From: Mesaphorura yosii
Lineage: Eukaryota > Arthropoda > Collembola > Poduromorpha > Tullbergiidae
DNA: 64,000 nucleotides
Direction: 5' to 3'
Assembly: GCA_009869945.1 (NCBI GenBank)
Contig: WIXG01000066.1
Span: forward strand, 62,001 to 126,000
The stretch's first letter is position 1. Each line of letters begins with the position of its first letter. A program made the translations under genes and the position numbers. Shown one piece after another: positions 17,319 to 62,601 of this stretch. The notes under the pieces are model-generated. The model was not told the origin of the DNA and did not search any database. It was given only the letters and a program-made list of their open reading frames with translations.

Positions 17319-20300
17319 CTAAATAAATGATGAGAATCCAGGAAGAGGCGCCCTTGACCTTGCCATATTATTTAAAACTATTCTGCCGTGACCGCCCTGC
17401 AGGCTTGCGGTGGCTTCGGCTTCTGAGTCTGTGTAACTTGAATAATTAACTGTAACCACTGGAGGAACTGTACGCACTGGCTTTTGCTTCTGCCATGATT
17501 GCTTAAGAGTATCGTTCACATTAGCGTAGTGATTTACAAACGAATGTGGGCCGACCGAACCGTCGGGCTCGTCCTCCACTTCAGTTTCACTGCCCTGGAA
17601 GAGAAAGGGACAATATTAGAAAAAGTTCCAGCATGACGAGAATTAAATGAGATTACAGACCCAAAGAGTTGTCAAGAGACATGAGACAGGATTTCAAGAT
17701 TTGAAGGCAGCAGCAGTATTTTTTTAAAAGATTAAAGCGAAAAAGACAATCACGTCATGGAAGCTCCAAAATAGAGAGAAAAATTAAGGCAAAAGTACAC
17801 AATCTCACACCGCAGGTTCAACGCGGTTATTTGGAAGAAGACTTGTCGACGGAGAGTGTCGATTTGACAAGAAAGCACCAGCACCAAGATGAAGAAGCTT
17901 TAGTTTATTCGCAACTCTGTTTAGAATCACTCTTACTTGTGAATCCGTTGAACTAATCTCTGATGGTTTTTCAGTCAAGCTGCTCTCATCAGGATTGTTA
18001 TCGTACGCTTTGTCAGACTCATCGTCAGTGTACGTGACTGAACCTGGCTTTGGACGGGGCGGGACTGATTTTGAGGAGGCGATCGACTTCCTTGATTTGA
18101 GAGTTGAGATCTTCTTTTGTGACCGTCGCAGTTCAACTGATGAACCATACATTATACCCTCTTCTATGCTATTTGTCTCGGCTAAACTCCTGTCCGAGTC
18201 ATCTGCAAGAGAATTCATCCGATAAGAATCGAGAGCTAAAGGAAATTACAAATTAAGAAAAAGTGCTGCCAAATTACGTTTATATTGCGACGACTTTGTT
18301 TTGACACATAAATACGCGACTAACGCGATAATGAGGACAACTGAAAGGGATGCGACGGCGACTAGGAACCATGTTTGCCTGTAAAATGGACTCGCTTGGA
18401 GGTAGCCGTACTCCAAATACATCTTCGATGGTGTAAAGACCTGTAGACCAGACACGCCATTTGAACATGAGGATTTTAAGCTAAATATTTTCCAACACAC
18501 ACAGTTTCCTCATCTCCGTAAGTCTTACCACTTCCTCAGATGCAGTCGGGTAACTGATCCCGTGCTGATTGTACGCAATCACTCGCAAATTGTACGAAGT
18601 GGATGGGAACAAGTTCTGGTATGACAAAGTGAAGTCACTTGCTGGTCCGTTGGTGGTCTTGACTATTGTTTGCCATCTGTTCTCATCTGCAAATTCAGAA
18701 CAAGTCTCGTTAATTAAATGAAAGATTGTTCAAGGCAGCCTAAACCCAAAATCGTAGCTCAACTCAACGGACGCACAACACTGCCGCCGGCACAACAAAA
18801 TTAGCAATTAGCTAGTGCATTGTGCAACAAAACTAAACGTGGACACACAACCCAAAATTGTCCCCAAATACGGTGAACTCAGGACTAGAATAGGAAAAAT
18901 GACAATAGATCATCATCAAATGTGCTGATATTTCTTCTCAGCGTGCCCCACAACATGAACGCGAGACTGACACACGACACAAGCACAGAATGTCCTAACG
19001 AATTTGCTATTTTGTTAATTTAAAGCATTAAACATGTAACTAGCAATCGGTTAATGTTGGCTGTGCTGTGATAAACTGGATCACTTACACATTTCCCATT
19101 CCTGGGTCACTGTAATTAAAATCAGATGTTTTCATATGTACGAAACTCAAAATTTAACTGTGGAGTGTTTTGTTGGCCAATTGTAATTAATCGTTTATAG
19201 TAGAGTGAATCATTTCCACCATGGTTAACGTGATATTCTCCTTAACTCATGCATCATGCTCACCTTTGCGTTTGGCTTCAATATAGTATCCATTGACTTT
19301 CGACTTCGGGTCGTTGACCCACTTCATTTGCACCGCAGCATACATTATTACCAGCGTCAAATCCTTCACGCTTTTTGGCGACCCACTTTGCGGCCCGGTG
19401 GTAACATTCTTCACGACGTCAGGTCCAACTTCGTTGAGGATGACATTCTTGGCACGTATGGAGAAACCGTACGAAGTCTCTTCTTCCAGATTCTCAACCA
19501 GTAAAGAACAGCAAGGCACTTTCTGGAGGACGTGCTTAGAAATTACGTGATCAACGCTGACGCTGTTGCTGCTCCTCGTACTAGTGGTTTGAGCATTGAG
19601 GTCAGAATGATGGTGCTTGGATTGCTGCGGCTGTACAACTGTTTCATACGTTATGATGTAGTACGCAATTTCACCATTTGGTTTGCTCGGTTTTTCCCAT
19701 GTTAGCTTCAAGTTGGTCATTGTGATATCGTAGAAACTGATGTTGGAGACGGGGCCGGGCGGGCCCTGGTGAGTGCGAGTGCGAAAGGGAAACGTCGATG
19801 GGCCATCTCCAGCTGGGTTAAACGCGAGCATTCGGATTGAGTACCAGGAATACATTTCCAGGAAGAAAAGTGAGTGCTGAGTGCACCACGCAGGAACAAC
19901 GTCAAGTTCCTCCTCTTCTTGGCCGTCCAATTTATAATAAATCTGACATATAGCAAGGACACATTTTAAACGGTACACTGCTTCTTGTTCGCTTTAGGTA
20001 ATCTTACCTTGTACCCAAGAAGATCGCCATTCTGCTGATTCTGATAAGGTGGCTTCCAAGTAATTTGAATTTCAGTCGCGGATGCTGCATTGATTGTGAA
20101 ATCTCGAGCTTCTCCAGTCGGCACGGCTTCGCCCACATAAACTGTGCTTGGTCTTGACTTGATTCCTTCGCCACGCGAGTTGAATGGAACGACAGTAATT
20201 TCGTAAGTTTTGTCTTTGGTCAACTCCTCCAGTACAAAGCTGGTTGTCATTATTCCTTGAACTTGCGCGGTGGGAGTTGCTTGCGGGTTTGCGACGGGGT

Positions 20301-23300
20301 AGTCAACAATTTGGCGATATTCAATGCGATACCCACCAGTATCAGAGTCACCGTTCCATTTCCCGGCAAGTGGCTTCCATGTCACACGCACGGACGTTGT
20401 TGTAATTGGAATGACTTGAACATCTGTTACCGATCCACTTGGTGCTGGAAAGTCGAGGTCAAAGTAAAGCAAGTTTAAGCAGTGTTTTTAATTAGTTTAT
20501 CAGCAATCGGCACCAACCTGCTGGTAGTGTCGTCGTCGTGTTAGACTCTTGCGAAAACCCACTCGGTCCAATATCATTTGTTGCTTGGATCTTGAATTTG
20601 TAAGATGTGAATGGTTTCAAGTTCTTGGCAGTGTAAGAAGTCCCAGTTGGAGGAATTCGTTCGTTGATCCGCTGCCAGTGAGAATTCGCCTCGCTGTAAT
20701 CCACGGTGTAGTATCTGAACAAACGCCATATGAAAAATGAATGCAATGAGCTTGTACGGAAGACCATAATTGCAGTTACTGTTAATGTGTTAATGTACCT
20801 GATTGGAGCAAATCCGTCCCTTCCTGGTGTCCAAGAAAATGTGATTTGATGTGACTGGATTTGGGATGGCGAAATTCTCGGAGCGCTTGGAGCCTGGGGT
20901 AACTCGCGGTTATTTGTCGTGTACACCTTCACTTTCGACGTTTCTCCCCAGCCAAGCCTTAAAGAGCAAATATGGTAATTTATAGGTCGCCGTATTAAAA
21001 CTATGCATAGTTCATATCTTTCATACCTTGTTTTAGCAGTGATTGTGAACCAGTAATACTTTTCACGGTCAAGATCAGTTGCTCTGCAGGAAAAGTTTGA
21101 TTTAAGTATGGCCGAAGCAAAAATGAGGTTAGACATTTTTCTCACCTGTATGTACGAGTCTCAGGTGGAAATTCCATTGAGAAGCTTGCTGACGAAAATC
21201 CTTCTAGCAAGTACGTTATTCTGTAAGCTTCAATTACACCGTTCGGGTCCGCAGGAGCATCCCAGATCATGCGTGCCGTAGTTGTGGACACATCGGGAAA
21301 GCTGACATTGCTTGGTGCTCCAGGAACTACGCAAAGAAGATAGATTCAGCATTCCCAAGCAAATAAAGACCTTAATATTTCTTTGCTATGTGATACTAAC
21401 CATCATCCCAAGTTTGAACAATCACCGGTGGATCGCAGAGCGCGCCATCTCCAATTCTGGTGAACGCCAGCACTTGAATGTGATACTGTGTGAACTTCTT
21501 CAAGTGAGTCAGCGTGGTCGTGAACGTAGTATTCGAAAGTATTTGCTTGTATGCAAACGGAACGTTTTTAGCACCGTAATAAACCTTGTATCCTTCGATC
21601 ACTCCATTTGCGTGCTGGTCGGGCACTGTGCCCCAACGAACAAGGATGGTCGTGGACGAAGTTGCGTTTGCGTCAATGATTGGTGGACCAACACCGGGAA
21701 CTGTAACGCAGAACGAAGGAGCGTGAGACATTGCGATCGCAAGTGGCAATTAATTACTTACCAGCTTCTCGAGTTCGCTCCAGCGCAGGCTTTGAAGGTT
21801 CCGATTCACCAACGTCATTCACTGCCATCATTATGACTTCGTATTGCGTGTACTCCTCCAGATTTGAAAGTATGTGCATGTTTCCAGTTGGATTCGTGAT
21901 TTTCTCGGATGCGTACGGAAGTTGTGAAGAATGCGGTCGGTACGAAATCAAGTAACCTTTCGGGTTTCCGTACCATTCAGTTTGCTGGAGAGGCTACGTA
22001 AAATCAAATGTCTGACATCAGATTTCTATAATCGAAAATACAGATTGACTTGGTTTCAACACTTACAATCCAGCGAACTTTCAACTGTGTCGCCGACATT
22101 GCCCGAACAGTAACATTTCTTGGCGGATGTGAAGGCGGTGCTTGCAGTGTTTGAAACAAGTGAGTTGGCTCTGAAGGTGATGACGGACCAACAACGTTGT
22201 TCGCAATCAATCGTACCTTGTACTGCATGTAAGGGATCAGTTTCTCCACAACAATTGATTCCGAATTTGACATCTTTGATGACGCTGTCGCTGGTGAAGT
22301 CATCCCACTGCCAGTTGTCACAATGGACGTGATTGTACTGCTCATGCTTCCGCCTGACGTGGACTCGGGCTCTTCGTAGTGCTCGTAAATTGTGTGCCAT
22401 GTCGAGTTTCGATTGGTTTGAGCTTGCACGGTCCATTTGTCAATGGACGAGTTTCCATCAAAGCCAGGCGTAAATTGTAGGACAATCGAAAATGGCTGGA
22501 TGTTCGAGACGGCAAGATTGTAGGGCGGCAAGGGCAAGACGGGTTCAACCCCGCTTTTAATACTGCCGGATTTGCAGACGCCTCGTCCTTTGCTTGTGAA
22601 GCCGCATATCTCAAATGTGTAATACGTGCTTGCCTTGAGTTGAGTTATCTTAACATTCGTGGTGATGTTGGATGTGAAATTCATGTTCTTAAAACTAGAT
22701 GGAATGTCTTTCACTCCATAACGTAATTGGTATCCGAGCAAGACTCCATTGGGCTTCAAAGGTGGAGTCCACACAACGCGAACAGAGCGATCGCTAATTT
22801 CTTCGAAATGAAGTGTGTGTATTTCGTCAGGAATATCCTCAAATGTTTTCGTCAGAAAAGAGACTGACCGCTTTCCGTCTCCAGGATTTGTAACTGCAAA
22901 GACAGAAACGTGAAACCTCGGCATACGGCATGTGAATTGACGCCATTAATTGCGAATGTTAACTCACAGCAGAGAACAGTGATATTGTATTCCATGAACT
23001 TGTCCAGCCCGCACAGAATTCCATTCTGTTCAGCCTGAAACCGTACATAAAATTAGTACTGCCATTCTCATTATCATTTAGGCTCACAGCCTACGATACT
23101 TTATACTTACTAAAGGGTCAAAGGGGCTTGGTGGCACAGAAATTCCAACCATCAACTCATTTTGAATCCATGCTTGTATCTTGTACCCTTGATTGATGCC
23201 GTTGATTTGTTGTGGATCCGGTGGTCTCCACCATGTGTCTGAAATAACATAACAACCCACGATAATAGTAAGCGAGCAAATAATTTATGAGGCGTGATCG

Positions 23301-26300
23301 TCGCTCGCTAGAAAACTTACGAACACACGTCGAGTTGATGGGTTCCACTCGCACATTTGTTGGTGGCGCATTTGGTATTCCTTCTCGCGTTTTCACTTTG
23401 ATACCGGGGCTGTAGATTCCAGTTCCTTTATTGTTGTACGCTGCCATTTGGATTTCGTAGTCTTTCCACGTAATTAAGTCTTCGATCAAGTAGTTCCGTT
23501 GAGCCTGCATAAGTATTACCAATTAAACATTAGTAAGCACACAAGAAAACCATAATACAACTTTTTCTTTATAAATATTTGTGCAGGTTTGCAGAATATG
23601 AAGCGGATTCTTACTTGGGCTTTTATCCTCTAAGAAGACAAAGCACAGACAAGAGACAAGATATTCGCGTAAAAACAGAGATAGAGATAGAACAATAATA
23701 CAAGCACACATTTCATTACCGTCACCAACATGTCATCAGTATAATTAGCAAATAGCATTTTCTGAAATTATCACGAAGCATCATTCTCTTCCATGTGTGC
23801 GCTTACCTCATTTGTGATATTGCGGTAGTTCCAGGGCGAATCTCCGTAACCATGCAGCCTATATCTGATCACGTAACCCAGAATTTGACCATTGCGGTGC
23901 TCGTCCAGCGGCGCCTGCCACTGAATGATGATCTGCGACGGCGAACGGGCTGACCCCACTAATCCAACTGGTGGGCCACTTGGAGCTATAAGAAAGTGAG
24001 CACAATTAAGCGTTAAGCTTCGTGAACTTGTGTTTTGGTTGGCATTCTGTTGAATTTACCTTCTTGGGGCAGGGTCACAATGTTTGATGGCTGTGAAGCC
24101 TCTCCTTCGCCAACGCTGTTTACGGCCGACAGCCTGAACTGGTAGGATGCAGCCGGTTTAAGTTTATTCACAATCACGCTTCTCGTATCAGACGAGACGT
24201 TCGCCAAAAGTGTTTCCCAACCAGCCGGTACCAAATCCACCTGAAGGCCTGATTCCGGGTTAACTGTTCGCTTTTGAATGATGTACTTCAGTACGGGCGA
24301 ATTCCCATCAAACCCATTTGTCCATGAAACGTTGACCGCTTTGGAATTCGCTCCCTGCAATTGCAATGAAACTCATCTTAAGTTGCTTAAGTCGAAAACA
24401 AATTTTGCTAAAGCTTACCGGCGCAAGTGTTGGCAGCTTTTGAGCAACAACATTTGAAGGTGGATAAGGCAACTCAATTATTTTCAAATTGGCCGTCCGC
24501 TCGTCATGCCCGCCTTGTGATCGCACGATGCACTTGTAAGTACCGACGTCCGAGGCCCGGACTTCTCGAAGTTCCAGAGTACCGTCCAGATGGATTATGA
24601 TTCTCGTTGAGACGCCAGCAATTATCGGCCTGCAAAAGCGTCAAGCGTAAAGGATCATTTCCTAAAATTGAACTCAGGCAATCTATGCGTGCATTGGATT
24701 AACTAATTGATGGCTCAACATACTCGTCATTGTGTTCCCACTCGATTTCGTACGGGACGGCTGGATCACTGGACACCTTACACTGGAGCGTTCCAACTTG
24801 CCCGAGGATGACTTGCGTATCAGCTGGCGGCTGGATGATTTGAGTTCGGAAGAGAACGTTGATAAATGCTGACCCAATCACGGTGCCAGCAGTGTTTGAC
24901 CGAATACACGTGTAGTGCCCTGCGAAAACCGAGTAAAACATGTAACATATCAACGTTTTAACAACAACTAGAAATATTCACGATCAACTTTTGTGAAGAA
25001 AGGATTCTTGAACGCGTAAGAATCAAACGGCGGACCAAAGAAGTGAATCTAAACAGAGATTCGCAGAGATTTGCGTTTCTTACCTGCGTCTCTTGCTCTA
25101 ACCGCTGCAATTAGGAGGCTCCCAGTCTCGAGTATTTGAAATCTTCCATGAGAGCATACTTCTTCGGTTTCTGCAGACAAAGAATAACATAATTGGGCAA
25201 CATGAAACCCAAAACCCCAAAATTCCGTACTCATGACAAAGTGTATCACCGTCGTGTCAAGTCATGGGAAAGTTGCAATGTTATGATTCAAAAACTATGG
25301 AATTTTAGTTAGCTGTCAGCCAATTCTGGGTCTGGGGTCATTAACTTAACTGCAAGTAACAAGCACTCACCATTACGATACCACGTCGTATTCGGAAGCG
25401 GAGCTCCGCCAACCTCGCAGAAGAGCGTTACGTCATTCCCTTCAAGTACAGTTTTATTCTCGGGTCCTTTGGTCATTGTTGGTGCGGACGCTGCGAGTGA
25501 AAAAGGAAATGAGAGACCATTATAAATAATGATTACGTGTGCGCGGTGTGTCGATTTTTAGAATGAAATGTCGACTACTCTACTCAATTCCAAGTCCAAG
25601 GCGTGGACAATGGCCTATGGCTACGTGTAGCAAGTGAGTGATAAATGGTGCGTGGTATTCGTGGCTGGCATTTATCACAACAATACATTCAAAAATAACA
25701 ACAAAAACAAAATACAAAATTGAAATGAATCCATCAACGATCAACTCGGTGCTTGTGTTTGCTGGTGCTGTGCAATTTATGGCATGAGCTTGGATTCGGC
25801 GTACAGCTGTTCTCGTGCTGACTATGGTCAATTGTGAATTGTGAATAGTGAATGGTGCAAACTGCAAATAGCAAACGTGATAAATGACAGACAAGACAAT
25901 GCCACACATATATTCTGGACAATGCGACGAATGTGCTGGTTTTGGTGCATTGATTAACTAATCTACGAGGAAGCACAAGAAACTCGGTAACTTCGGCAAA
26001 ATAAAACTTGAGTGTAAAAAGCGGTTGAAATTGCGTGGAAAGGATTCAGAATATAAAAAATGAAGGCAAATTGCAAAGAGAATTTTGAAATCTCTCAAAA
26101 TGGAAGTTCATCCATCAAAACTAAAATTAAACTAGAGCTAAAGAGTAAAGCTATGCATTGCAACTGCAACTGAACTGCAATTCCAGAAAGGCGAAGGGCA
26201 AGTCGACCAAGAAGATTAAAATTTTTACCATTTACAGGCAATGCCAAAAGTAGATCAACAAATGTAATTGAGGCAACTTTTGGAGAAGAAATACTATTGC

Positions 26301-29300
26301 TGGGGCTGAGAGCAGTTGACTTTGACTCAGGCGGCTCGCCAGAGGCGGAGGCAGCAGAAGGGAGCGGGAGCATGGGCACCCTTCTCGCGCGATCCTTCGC
26401 ATCATCATCTGTTTCTGTTACAGCATGGCATGCGGCAGTTATTTACATTTAGTACAAAAGTATTTACAGCAAGGCAAGTGATTTCCTTAAAAGATATCGG
26501 AGCCGTCAACCGTGAACATTTAAAAGAGCAGCAGAGAAGATATAAATTCCATGTAAGGCAATAAATTAATCTCGGCGCAATCGTCTTGACACTAATGACT
26601 AATCAAGTGCATAATTTATGTACACGTGCGTTCTGCCTGCATGTACGCGTGTTCAATTCTTCTGGCTCAATATTTCGGGTAACACGATTCGATTACGGAA
26701 ACTGAAGTGGATCTTCCCGAAACGAAAGCAGAAAGCACCGAGAAGTATTTACATATTTTACACGACGGAGTTATGAAACTGAATACGAAAATACATTTAT
26801 GATAATTGTACAGCAGTTTGTGTTTTGCATTTTGCATGCGCCTCACACGCTCGGGCACGCACACGGCGCACGCGCGCGGGTTTGCAGTGAAATGATTAAA
26901 AGATCTCCACGAGAGAAATATTAATATTATGAATGCAGAATGCAACTCAAAATTCACTACTTTACATCTCAATTACAGTGAGACGATGAAAGCAATGAAG
27001 AAAATCCACAAGGTACCAGGAGGCTAATGCGCTGGCGCTTACATTTGCGCTGCTTTGCATGTTAATCTTGACATTTACTTGAGAATAATTTGGCATGGCT
27101 TTGCTTAGCCAATACGCAGCAAGACTCAAGACTAAATTCGACTTACTTTTAACCCGAAGCCACGTGTACCCGTTCGCCTCGCCCGCATCGTTCGCAGCCC
27201 AGCACTGATACATTCCAGAGTCTTGAGCTCGAAGATAGTGCACGGTTAATGAACCACTCTCGCTATCGTACGAGTAACCAGGAAGACCAATTATGGGAGT
27301 CGTGTCTTTGAACCAGGTTATGTTAACTTTGGGGTGACCACCGACGGAGCAATGGAGCACGACTTCCTTCCCGAATTCGCCGTACGCCTCTGATGGCATC
27401 GGAGAGTTGAAGTACGGTTTCTCTGCAAAGGAATTCAGCAATTGCTATTTTCTACCGACGATTTTACCACCTTATAACTCGTAGCACGTGCAAGTTCCTT
27501 CGCCCCAGTTTCTCTGGTTGCAGTTCCTCTGTCCGAGTTCCGAGGAACTCTGTCCTAGAGGAACTCAAGTCAGAGGAATTCGGACGGAGTAGCCTGCAGC
27601 CAGAGGTACTCAGAACACAGGAACTCGCACGTAGAATCCTTAAAACTTGTGTATTTTCCTGATTTTATTCGGAATAACTAAAATTCATAACGGCATCGCA
27701 TGCCGTTGCAAAATTCCGATCGACAACCATATAAACTTACCTAGAATCGTGACCTTCGCAGTTGCGGACACAACCGGAAAAAGGGAATTCCTTAATCTAG
27801 CTTGGCACGTGTACTCGCCGCTATGAGCCGGTTCAATCCTTAGCAGGGACAATGTCCGATTCCAGAGATCATTAAATGAAGTTGCCACTCCAGTCATTTC
27901 AATCGGGATTCCATCCTTCAGCCAAATCGTCTCCAGCTCATGAAGTGGCCTTGCATTCACGATGCAGTACAGCTCGTATTCTTGGGTCCCTCTGACAATC
28001 TGTGCGTCGGTCGGTGGCACAACAATGCTCGGCTGAATCTGGTCTGGAGTCCCGGAGCCAGAGCCGTAGTTGTCATTAGAATTTGAGGTGACTACAAGCT
28101 GAATGTATCCGGACGTTTCTTCTTGGCCCAGCTGAGTATTCGTGGCACGTGCACGGTACGCTTTCTGGTCACTGCTGCTCACATCGAGCACAATTTGGTG
28201 GAAGTCTCTGGTCAGTGCAAATTTCGAACCGTACAGCAGAGTATTGTCACGGGTTTGCCAAGCGACGGATGGGGGCGGATGGCTCTGAATGTAAGGAAGC
28301 TCGAGAATGACTGCTTCTCCAGGTCGGGCAATCACAGTCTTCTCGTCTTGCTGGATAAATGGTGTCATATCTGCAAGCACAAATTTTACGGTCAAATGAC
28401 CAATACTTCTAACACTAATGAGCTGAATGCATGATTCGGGATAACACAACGGGGAGGCAAGTCATTCACCGAATTTGCTTTTCGTGCAGTTAGCACGGCA
28501 AAGAAAAAAAGTTGATAATAGGAATCATGTTTGCAAAATAATTTACGGAAGAGTTACGAAATAATTAAATGCCGGTTCTACATCGACATCTAATTGACAA
28601 CATATTTGAACCTGATGCAGAATAATGAGTTGAGAACGAACAGGTGAGCAATTAAAAAGAGGCGTTACTCCACACTATGCTAGAACAGAAAACTTCTCGT
28701 TAAGATAGCAGCATATGCCATCGCCTCGTCATTGTTTATACACCGTCATACAATTCGCCGAGTTAACAATGCAAACATTGAAGTTGTAAGCGGTAAACAT
28801 GGTTGAATGAGCAGTTCGCATGCTAGCGCTAAGCAGGAACAAAGTCGCTGCCAGCCTCGGCGCAGGAGTGAAGGACCTTTATGTAAATTAACGCCTGACT
28901 TACATGCAACTGTCACGCGAATCTTTTCCGAGTATATCGCTCCAGCATCGTTCCTCGCAATGCACTGGTAGTCGCCCGCATCGTCTCGCCGTGACGATTG
29001 GATCTTGTAGAAATGCTCCACACTGAAATCGCCAAGAGACTGGCCATCCTTCAGCCATCGATACTCCGGTTGTGGAATACCTGAAAATGAAATGAACAAG
29101 CAAATTGTAAACGCAAACGAGCTGGCGTGGTGTAAGAATGAAAAATTATTTTCACAGCATCAAGCATCAGGCAAGAGGCAAGATAATACCAAACATGAAT
29201 TTTCATAAATGAGAAAGTCGTGCAGTTGTCAAATAAAGGAGCCCATTGTTCTTGTTGGTGCGTTTGCGAGGAAAAGCGGAGCAGAGCGATTGTGAAATGG

Positions 29301-57565: not shown

Positions 57566-59152
57566 ATGGCTGTACGCCAAACTCCGCTGACTTGTCATGG
57601 CCATACCCGGCCCGTTGTTCACCTAGCGTTTAGTGGAATCACAGAATGTGGTTACTTTGTCATATCGGCGTGCAAAGGTACGGCAGCTTTCACTAATTAT
57701 GATGGCGCCAGCTGTTTGCCTTCCTCTACGACTTGAGGCAGTTAATACTTTGTGATGAACATGGCATTTATGTTGTTTAAATGATATTTCCAGACGGGAA
57801 GCCGATGTTGAGACAAGGCGATACCGGTGACTGGATTGGGACATTCGAAGGACACAAAGGTGCTGTTTGGGGAGTCGCATTGAATCATGACGGTTCAAAG
57901 GCTGCAACTGGCGCAGCTGATTTCACAGCCAAAGTTAGTCACTTCAATTTCTAACACCAACAAATAGCGAATAACTCCATACTGCATCTTTGCGGGATCA
58001 TTTTGATATTTTTTCAGATTTGGGATGCCCTTAGTGGTGTCGAGCAACAAAGCTTCCAACATAATCATATTGTTAAGTCAGTTGGTTTTAATTTAAGAGG
58101 AAACTTACTAGTTACGGGGAGTAATGAAAAAATTATCAGAATCTTCGACTTGAAGCATCCGGATGTTGGTAAGCAGTACTTCATAGCCCTTTTATTGCCC
58201 GTATCTTATGATTATGATAAAGTATGATCGTAAACGCGTAGTCTAACTCAAGAATAGCATCTTTCTCCACAAACCCCGCATGTGTATAATTTTTTCACGA
58301 CCATAAAAGCTCAACGTTATGTAGGCAATTAAAATGTGAGTATAATGCCTCGTATTATACTCAAAGGCTGTATTAATCTTTATGGCATTATTACAGAGCC
58401 TTTAAAATTAATCGGACATGATTCCAACCTGAAACATTGCAAATTTTATATGGACAATTACATCGTCAGCTGTTCGGACGATAAGGTGAGGGCGACAATT
58501 TCAAAAGCAAGCATTGGCCTTCAAGTTTTGATTCCCAATTGTTGATTTGACCGCAGACCGTCCGATTGTGGGACCTAAGGACATGTACTCAGGTGAAACG
58601 CATCTCATGTCCAAGTGAAGTCAGTGACTTGGATGTGAATCTTTCGACGTTGACACTTTGCTACGGAAATACTGTTGCCTTTGCCAAAATTGATACGTAA
58701 GTGTGTATGCTTCCTGAACTACTTCAATGGCGGACTGAGCATTAGAAAATTTTCTGATCGTACAGGCTAGAAATTATTAAGGAGGTTGAAGTTCCCACAC
58801 AAGTTCTTTCGGCTTCCATGAAACAAGATGAATCGATCTTTGTATGTGGAGGCGAGGATTTCAAAATCTACAAGTACGATTACGACACTGGGATCGAATT
58901 GGGTAATGCATCACAACAGTAAATCCTGCTAGGTTGCACGTACATGTTCACATGTTGCGTTATCACTTTGTAGAAGCCTTCAAGGGTCACTTTGGCCCAG
59001 TCCATTGTGTCCGCTTTTCCCCAGACGGCGAACTGTACGCGTCAGGAAGTGAAGACGGCACTCTTCGCCTGTGGCAAACAAATGTTGGAAAAAATTACGG
59101 TCTATGGAAGTGCATACAAGGAGGAGACAACGGGAAGTCAGATTGTGAATAG
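57566..59152 (+). CDS. STRAP: STRAP: serine-threonine kinase receptor-associated WD40 protein
   Basis: Seven exons (57566–57677, 57794–57933, 58018–58168, 58397–58485, 58557–58696, 58766–58902, 58974–59152) join in phase to 315 residues. The WD40 propeller shows diagnostic STRAP stretches: [17 protein letters not shown] at the start, [20 protein letters not shown] across the first junction, [34 protein letters not shown] and the nearly invariant [20 protein letters not shown] near the end. STRAP is a scaffold of TGF-beta receptor/Smad signalling and, as Unrip, a partner of the SMN complex in snRNP assembly. The C-terminal tail is shorter than in vertebrates. An AATAAA lies at 59290. Confidence 0.93.
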
Positions 59153-59289
59153 TGCCCAGCGTCAAGTCCTCCTATCCTATTTGTTATTTCTGGGAAATTA
59201 TCTGTGTTATCTCGTTGTGTAAGCTATTCATAACAATAGGCTACTAGACGTAAGTAGTAATTTTATAAATGGATTTAGAATATTTTGGT

Positions 59290-59474: not shown

Positions 59475-60343
59475 CTAGGTTTTGTCCAGCATATTTCGCA
59501 CGTAGCTCTCAATCTTCGGAGGCAATCCGAGCTCCTTCAAGTCAGACTCGTACTGTTTAAGTGTCCCGTATCCACCAACGTAGCCATTTAATTTCGCCGC
59601 AACGAATGATCGATTGAGCCCGGCCCCTGGCTCCATGTCCAACGCGGTCAGTATGTACGGATACTTTTGCAGAAGGTACTTTTGGTGATAGCTGCATAAA
59701 ACGGAAAACAGGAAGCATAAAAATGGTAAAACATCGCATGAATGGAGCTTCAGCTTGCAATTACTTCTCTGCGTTTGTGAATTCGACAAATGGCAAAATT
59801 TTGGTTTGGATCATTCGCTTTGATTGCTGAGCCAGGAATGTCTTCTCTGCCAACTTCTTTTGCTCCTCGTTGTGGTAAAAGATGACAGACATATACTACA
59901 TGACAGGAATCGAAAACAGTGTAACTTGTGTTCACTCAATACATTTCAGGTCTTTCTTATAAATATTTCAAAGGCGTTTTATACCTGTCGAGAGCATTTG
60001 CTCGTTGGGTTGTGATTTCTCCAGAACATGTCCAGCAACTGTTCGTAGCTGATGACATTCGGATCATACTCGATGTCAACAGTCTCTGTGTGGTCGCCAC
60101 TGCAAAGTGCAATGTCAACCCGCACCCACATTCAAGTACTTCGTTGCACAGTTTAAAGAAAGTCGGGACTTACATGTGCCTGTACGTTGGATTCTTTAGC
60201 GACCCACCAGCGTAGCCCACTCGGGTGCGGATCACTCCGAGTGAAGCACCAAATTGTGCTTCAGGAAACCAAAATCAGGACATGCCAAACGTCGCCCTCT
60301 CCCCGGACCAATTCTCGTACTTTTCGTCACCGGTCTTTCCCAT
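59475..60343 (-). CDS. MsrA: selenoprotein methionine sulfoxide reductase A (Sec at catalytic site)
   Basis: MsrA reduces methionine-S-sulfoxide in proteins. Four exons, 60343–60174, 60099–59985, 59895–59765 and 59691–59475, close in phase to 210 residues. The active-site motif normally reads GMGCFW; here it reads [16 protein letters not shown], the TGA (60277–60275, codon 23) standing exactly where the catalytic Cys belongs. All other family segments are intact: [69 protein letters not shown] and [16 protein letters not shown]-like hairpin follows in the 3' UTR. The start is the ATG at 60343, the nearest in frame; the frame stays open upstream to 60490, so a longer N-terminus is possible. 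A premature stop in a pseudogene is the alternative, but one TGA at the catalytic codon with everything else intact argues against it. Confidence 0.88.
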
Positions 60344-61746: not shown

Positions 61747-62601
61747 TATGCAAGCTTTGTTGTCCTTTGAGACAAAACCACCATCTCGACTGAAACTACC
61801 ACCGTTGTAAATCAACCTCAAAGTTTCTTCTTGGTAAATGAATTTACTCTTCAAACATCGAACGGAAGAATAGCAACAACGCAACGCAACGTTGCTTTCT
61901 TTAGTCACAAGCCTCTCTACTCTCTTTCAAATCTCTCAAGTTTCCAGGTAGTCAAATGTTTGCAGCGTCCGCTTCTGTCCGTCAGGCACGGGTTTCCAAG
62001 ACAGAGAAGGGGCTCCACCGGAAGTGGATACAGGAACGCGTGGCGCGGCTGCAGCCATTCTTGTTTACGCACATAAACAGCGTTATTGGAATTGCAAGAC
62101 AGGGATTTATTCGTAAATGGTAAATTCGTGTTTAACTATGTTCATCAGTTACATACAATGGAATTAAAATAAAAATCCACCAACGGCTTGAGGGCTTGAA
62201 GTGAGTACAAGAACGAGGTACTCATCAAATATAAAGGTCAATAGAAGAGAGACTGCAATCACCGGTTATCAGCAGCGTCTGCTCCTTTTTGCAGGATTTC
62301 TTTTTTTTCCATCGCATCTTGAGCGTCCGTACATCGCATCGCCTTGTCTTGGTTGAACTCGCATAAATCCTCATCAACCAATGATGATCGTATTGTAAAG
62401 AATCACTAGAGTTTTCTATGACCACGGCTATTGACATTTTTTGGCTTTGCTTCGGACAAAAGGCATTTGCGGACAGTTGGTCGACGACGACGGCCGAAAC
62501 CGTCGTACTGCCAGACTCTGAGACCTTTTGTTCTGGTTGCAATTTGCGAATTAACATAAAAACACATTTCCAGGTTGTTTTGCGTACTACTTTATGCGAA
62601 G
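61747..62601. other. divergent promoter region
   Basis: Between the small membrane protein gene (−) and CHMP2 (+). It should contain both promoters. An antisense frame at 62225–62689 is judged a shadow of CHMP2 exon 1 and its leader. Confidence 0.3.

Follow-up and report, generated by a model that had tools for sequence, protein, structure and literature searches.

A putative helical-domain selenoprotein methionine sulfoxide reductase encoded in the genome of the collembolan Mesaphorura yosii

Judged from its DNA, contig WIXG01000066.1 of the Mesaphorura yosii assembly GCA_009869945.1 (here C66) very probably encodes a selenoprotein methionine-S-sulfoxide reductase (MsrA) of the helical-domain subfamily, with residue 75 a selenocysteine (Sec75) read from TGA. 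A TGA at the MsrA catalytic residue was the central claim of the original prediction for this window, a stretch of 64,000 nucleotides (contig positions 62,001 to 126,000), and the motif GMS-TGA-FW does stand on its minus strand, with the TGA at 60277-60275. As far as DNA can show, the selenocysteine reading of this codon is supported, and it is now better founded because a SECIS-like hairpin follows the gene, and because genes of the Sec machinery and other genes bearing an in-frame TGA (for GPx and SPS2) are found in the same genome.

Gene structure and the residue at the active site

The MsrA gene occupies 60894-59475 of the window on the minus strand, in five exons with a predicted product of 262 amino acids. 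Its features are as follows.

60894-60835, minus strand: exon 1, tentative; an ATG and a GT donor in frame with exon 2, short and presequence-like as judged by eye
60439-60174, minus strand: exon 2, which holds the catalytic motif GMS-U-FW and ends in phase 2; Pfam PF01625 on the spliced product
60277-60275, minus strand: putative Sec75 TGA codon, aligned with the catalytic Cys16 of CoMsrA
60099-59985, minus strand: exon 3, which holds Cys144, a candidate resolving cysteine
59895-59765, minus strand: exon 4, from the spliced model
59691-59475, minus strand: exon 5, which encodes YHQKY and, C-terminally, the helical domain PF20939; the TAG stop is 59477-59475
59394-59348, minus strand: SECIS-like core ATGA...TGTAAAC...TGAT, 80 nt 3' of the stop codon

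Exon 1 was placed by its ATG and splice sites only, and an in-frame ATG at amino acid 53, within exon 2, is an alternative start. All four introns of the spliced model are GT-AG and their phases close, and the TGA is the sole in-frame stop before the TAG. The clean, correctly phased frame of the original prediction is thus retained, with four introns instead of three; the range it assigned to MsrA (60174-60343) lies inside the gene and covers just part of exon 2. With the TGA translated as Cys, the spliced product scores 139.8 bits with the Pfam PMSR model and 35.8 bits with MsrA_helical (cut-off 23.7 for both). In a PF01625 search of the genome, three exons of this gene were matched, one of them with the TGA as an internal stop. 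The coding end of a WD-repeat gene, on the plus strand at about 58980-59170 of the window, runs towards the MsrA gene, which brings their 3' ends near to each other. Elsewhere in the window (19247-28449, minus strand), several open frames resemble fibronectin-III and immunoglobulin domains and perhaps form one large cell-adhesion gene.

The closest known system is CoMsrA, the selenoprotein MsrA of Clostridium oremlandii (PDB 4LWJ and kin), which, according to PMC4333827, has Sec at the catalytic residue and a catalytic domain followed by a C-terminal helical domain, like the predicted C66 product. The CoMsrA-type chain 4lwk was the best of the 30 distinct solved sequences matched (E = 1.4e-43), and its alignment extends through the helical domain. 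As had been anticipated, alignment with MsrA homologues makes the TGA column a Cys/Sec column in CoMsrA-like chains and in prokaryotic relatives. The TGA pairs with the CoMsrA catalytic residue in five alignments, all with CoMsrA-like chains, of which four have Cys at that residue and one has Ser. An earlier scan of genome contigs with the single C66 protein returned 94 stretches with no relative among them; relatives were found with alignment-based patterns, and the best 80 of 560 were kept. The catalytic codon was read in 78 of these best 80: 4 have TGA and 74 have a Cys codon. Sec forms are under-represented in these counts, since CFW was part of one of the two patterns used in the search. 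The two remaining rows of the best 80 (L042 and L062) have Cys. The four TGA-bearing genes among the best 80 are of helical type (L038, from a Deltaproteobacteria MAG, L039, L040 and L051).

The active site of CoMsrA, as listed in PMC4333827, consists of GCFWG, Tyr47, Glu55, Gln89, Tyr90, His137 and Tyr140, to which S-U-F-W-F, Tyr106, Glu114, Gln147, Tyr148, His193 and Tyr196 correspond in the C66 product. The equivalents of Phe17, Trp18, Tyr47, Glu55, Gln89, Tyr90, His137 and Tyr140 are all retained, and the only differences are at the two glycines of GCFWG, replaced by Ser74 and Phe78. These glycines are present in 31 and 30, respectively, of 33 helical-type rows (19 placed by the tree and 14 assigned by eye, with L062, which has Cys at the catalytic residue, left out), and their joint absence from C66 counts against the Sec-MsrA reading.

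A SECIS-like hairpin and the selenocysteine machinery

Behind the stop codon lies a hairpin that the original prediction, which had called for a SECIS search, had overlooked. Its core (ATGA, 10 nt, TGTAAAC, 22 nt, TGAT) fits a SECIS element in core, stem and spacing, with 10 of 10 pairs in helix II by ungapped counting, and it presumably forms part of the mRNA. On its own, the core folds with a small apical helix, ATGA and TGAT remaining single-stranded; longer folds pair the outer two ATGA bases. The fold energy is modestly low (z = -2.42; 4 of 200 shuffles fold as well). Our SECIS scan of the window, devised like the core pattern after the candidates had been seen, gave 7 matches with at least 8 pairs (30 under looser settings), and the only one with more than 9 pairs was this hairpin, with 12. 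Matches of 12 pairs arise 0.05 times per 128 kb in first-order random sequence (7.68 Mb sampled). The Rfam model SECIS_1 matched neither the 4-kb region surrounding the gene nor any other part of the genome, where the GPx elements described below likewise went unreported. We take this silence as insensitivity of the model, because its own controls were also unmatched, though as a negative result it still counts against the hairpin. The core pattern was not enriched genome-wide (the pattern gave 8 matches and its reversed control 9), so that its letters by themselves are unremarkable. It had been built from the MsrA element and the two GPx elements, which therefore match by construction, and of the 8 matches only these three founding elements fold as a SECIS core by eye.

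The rest of the genome (93.0 Mb in 1127 contigs) was searched for Sec machinery, most of which is present as the original prediction would require. The tRNA-Sec model gave four matches, one of them above the gathering score (74.6 bits against 47) and with a TCA anticodon as read by eye. SepSecS was matched by five exons, eEFSec by one domain (45.5 bits, cut-off 27) and SPS2 by three exons, the best of which (103 bits) is below the whole-protein cut-off of 125. No SBP2 was recognisable among the 7 genome matches to L7Ae, which read by eye as ribosomal and snoRNP-type proteins. The cuticle domain PF00379 has 66 matches in the genome, and the contig with the MsrA gene carries one of these (C66:40829-41023). 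Such numbers are those of an arthropod, and these matches argue against contamination. A search of the assembly for COX1 found none.

Other genes of this genome carry TGA at a catalytic position. Matches to GPx were found on four contigs: two have TGA as the catalytic codon (NVASK-TGA-G on C426 and NLASN-TGA-G on C141), and two read by eye as Cys there (C262 and C1052). The 3.2-kb loci of the two TGA-bearing genes gave one SECIS scan match each, with 9 pairs on C426 and 10 on C141, both with the TGTAAAC loop found behind the MsrA gene; helix II of the C426 core has 9 of 10 pairs and one mismatch. Matches of 9 or 10 pairs occur about 4.6 times per 128 kb in random sequence, so that the GPx hairpins are individually weak, and they count as support because of their position and common loop rather than their pairing strength. 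The SPS2 gene (C589:30183-31234) has an in-frame TGA at its active site (LKG-TGA-GCKV) and is thus of the selenoprotein form; its locus gave three weak scan matches, one of which, with 9 pairs, lies about 100 nt past the stop as judged by eye. The SelW/T family is represented by two exon matches. The C141 locus shows two SECIS-like cores about 150 nt apart, at about 166830-167030 (offsets 2330 and 2482), the second with 8 of 10 pairs in helix II.

MsrA copies in the genome and alternative readings of the TGA

The PF01625 search gave ten exon matches on five contigs (C66, C104, C103, C130 and C75). C66 carries a helical-domain MsrA (PF01625 plus PF20939), as does C104, a Cys copy (GMNCFW) whose PF20939 score of 23.8 bits is barely above the cut-off of 23.7. 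By eye, the two genes have two phase-2 intron positions in common and the third intron is absent from C104. The SECIS scan found no match in the 1.5 kb after the C104 stop. C104 has Gly, Asn and Val in place of the CoMsrA Tyr47, His137 and Tyr140 equivalents, so that, of the two, it is the putative Sec-bearing copy whose active site is conserved. The copy at C103:139979-140095 (GMGCFW) is decaying, with a frame break and an in-frame stop seen by eye. C130 is an ordinary-type Cys MsrA. C75 (196081-196536), also of ordinary type, is one unbroken frame of 218 amino acids with Arg at the catalytic place (GGGRFW), possibly a retrocopy or a non-catalytic paralogue.

In a tree of 37 rows, with the catalytic letter masked throughout and with C103 and the mammalian structures left out, the helical and ordinary types separate at 100/100. 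C66 has C104 as its sister (99/91), seventeen prokaryotic or CoMsrA rows make up the remainder of the helical clade, and C130 and C75 stand together inside the ordinary clade. The structures 1FVA, 1FVG, 2L90 and 6AGV, which we take to be mammalian MsrA, share the PF01625 catalytic domain with C66, but their match to it stops before the helical domain. They score C130 above C66 (121.5-125.6 against 74.0-76.5 bits) and are therefore placed with C130 by similarity, outside the tree. Ordinary animal MsrA catalyzes the reaction that is predicted for the C66 product. The earlier statement that most animal MsrA proteins use Cys thus mixes two subfamilies, since C66 belongs to the helical-domain type, alongside which this genome encodes the ordinary Cys enzyme of C130.

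An ordinary Cys enzyme could still be encoded if the TGA were an error of sequencing or assembly, being just one base away from TGC or TGT. This would make a coincidence of the SECIS-like hairpin after the stop, and another of its resemblance to the hairpins that follow two further genes with an in-frame TGA; moreover, TGA forms at the same residue occur among prokaryotic relatives. We consider such an error very improbable. A nonsense mutation in a dying copy is slightly less probable again. Decayed MsrA copies do exist in this genome, as C103 illustrates, and C75 has lost its catalytic residue to Arg, but C66 is free of any further lesion and keeps the active-site residues listed above; it is its Cys sister C104 that lost the equivalents of Tyr47, His137 and Tyr140. 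Least probable of all, to the point of being hardly credible, is that the TGA terminates translation or is excised from the mRNA, giving a truncated or altered product. Truncation at amino acid 74 removes the enzyme, and since our gene model places the TGA within the catalytic motif of exon 2, its removal by splicing would delete the active site.

Catalysis, recycling and evolution of the helical-domain enzyme

If the TGA is read as selenocysteine, the 3' hairpin of the mRNA would recruit the Sec insertion complex and UGA would be decoded as Sec75. By analogy with CoMsrA, Sec75 would attack S-methionine sulfoxide, with Tyr106, Glu114 and Tyr148 probably flanking the sulfoxide oxygen as described for that enzyme. 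The oxidised Sec could then be reduced as CoMsrA is, by the glutaredoxin-glutathione system, or by way of Cys144, on a loop beside Gln147-Tyr148. Published accounts of CoMsrA (PMC4333827 and PMC4479559) describe a bacterial enzyme that contains no Cys, is 20 times as active in its Sec form as in its Cys form and relies on glutaredoxin, not on thioredoxin, for its recycling; the C66 gene differs in Cys144, in its introns and in its 3' hairpin. Cys144 adjoins the equivalent of the CoMsrA loop 86-TNRQYM-91, which moves with redox state according to PMC4479559, and it may be a resolving cysteine of C66. Among the 33 helical-type rows, Cys at this position is found only in C66 and C104. The bacterial Sec form L038 has a Cys one column away, beside the same Arg-Gln-Tyr, in a gapped part of the alignment, and given this gene a Cys on the loop may not have originated with animals.

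Sec-MsrA in arthropods is already known, and the case is less noteworthy in this respect than first claimed. PMC4244043 names Sec-MsrA for Strigamia, Daphnia pulex, Ixodes scapularis and Branchiostoma floridae. It reports that every selenoprotein gene of Strigamia is followed by a SECIS, and it regards the Cys form of insects and vertebrates as the product of a later conversion of the Sec form. PMC3473315 gives Sec-MsrA for five of six marine invertebrates, Lottia being the one without. As is predicted for C66, these are animal MsrA with Sec, a likeness drawn from published description and not from sequence. What C66 adds is a further arthropod case, together with its hairpin and sister copies. 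Our literature search, which covered open-licence papers, found no report of a helical-domain MsrA in animals, nor of a resolving Cys in a helical-domain MsrA.

As a tentative proposal, which we hold to be possible and on balance rather unlikely, the arthropod helical Sec-MsrA could be a two-residue enzyme, in which Cys144, on a mobile loop beside Gln147-Tyr148, resolves Sec75, which could allow recycling by thioredoxin in place of glutaredoxin. Under the same proposal C104 may have another role, and loss of the helical subfamily, not Sec-to-Cys conversion, would explain the lack of Sec-MsrA in vertebrates and insects. Two deeply separate MsrA subfamilies coexist in one animal genome. This coexistence bears on the conversion view, as set out in PMC4244043: the helical-domain subfamily may have been lost instead. 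The sister pair of C66 and C104, one putatively with Sec and one with Cys, and unequal in the conservation of their active sites, would offer a natural comparison of the benefit of selenocysteine.
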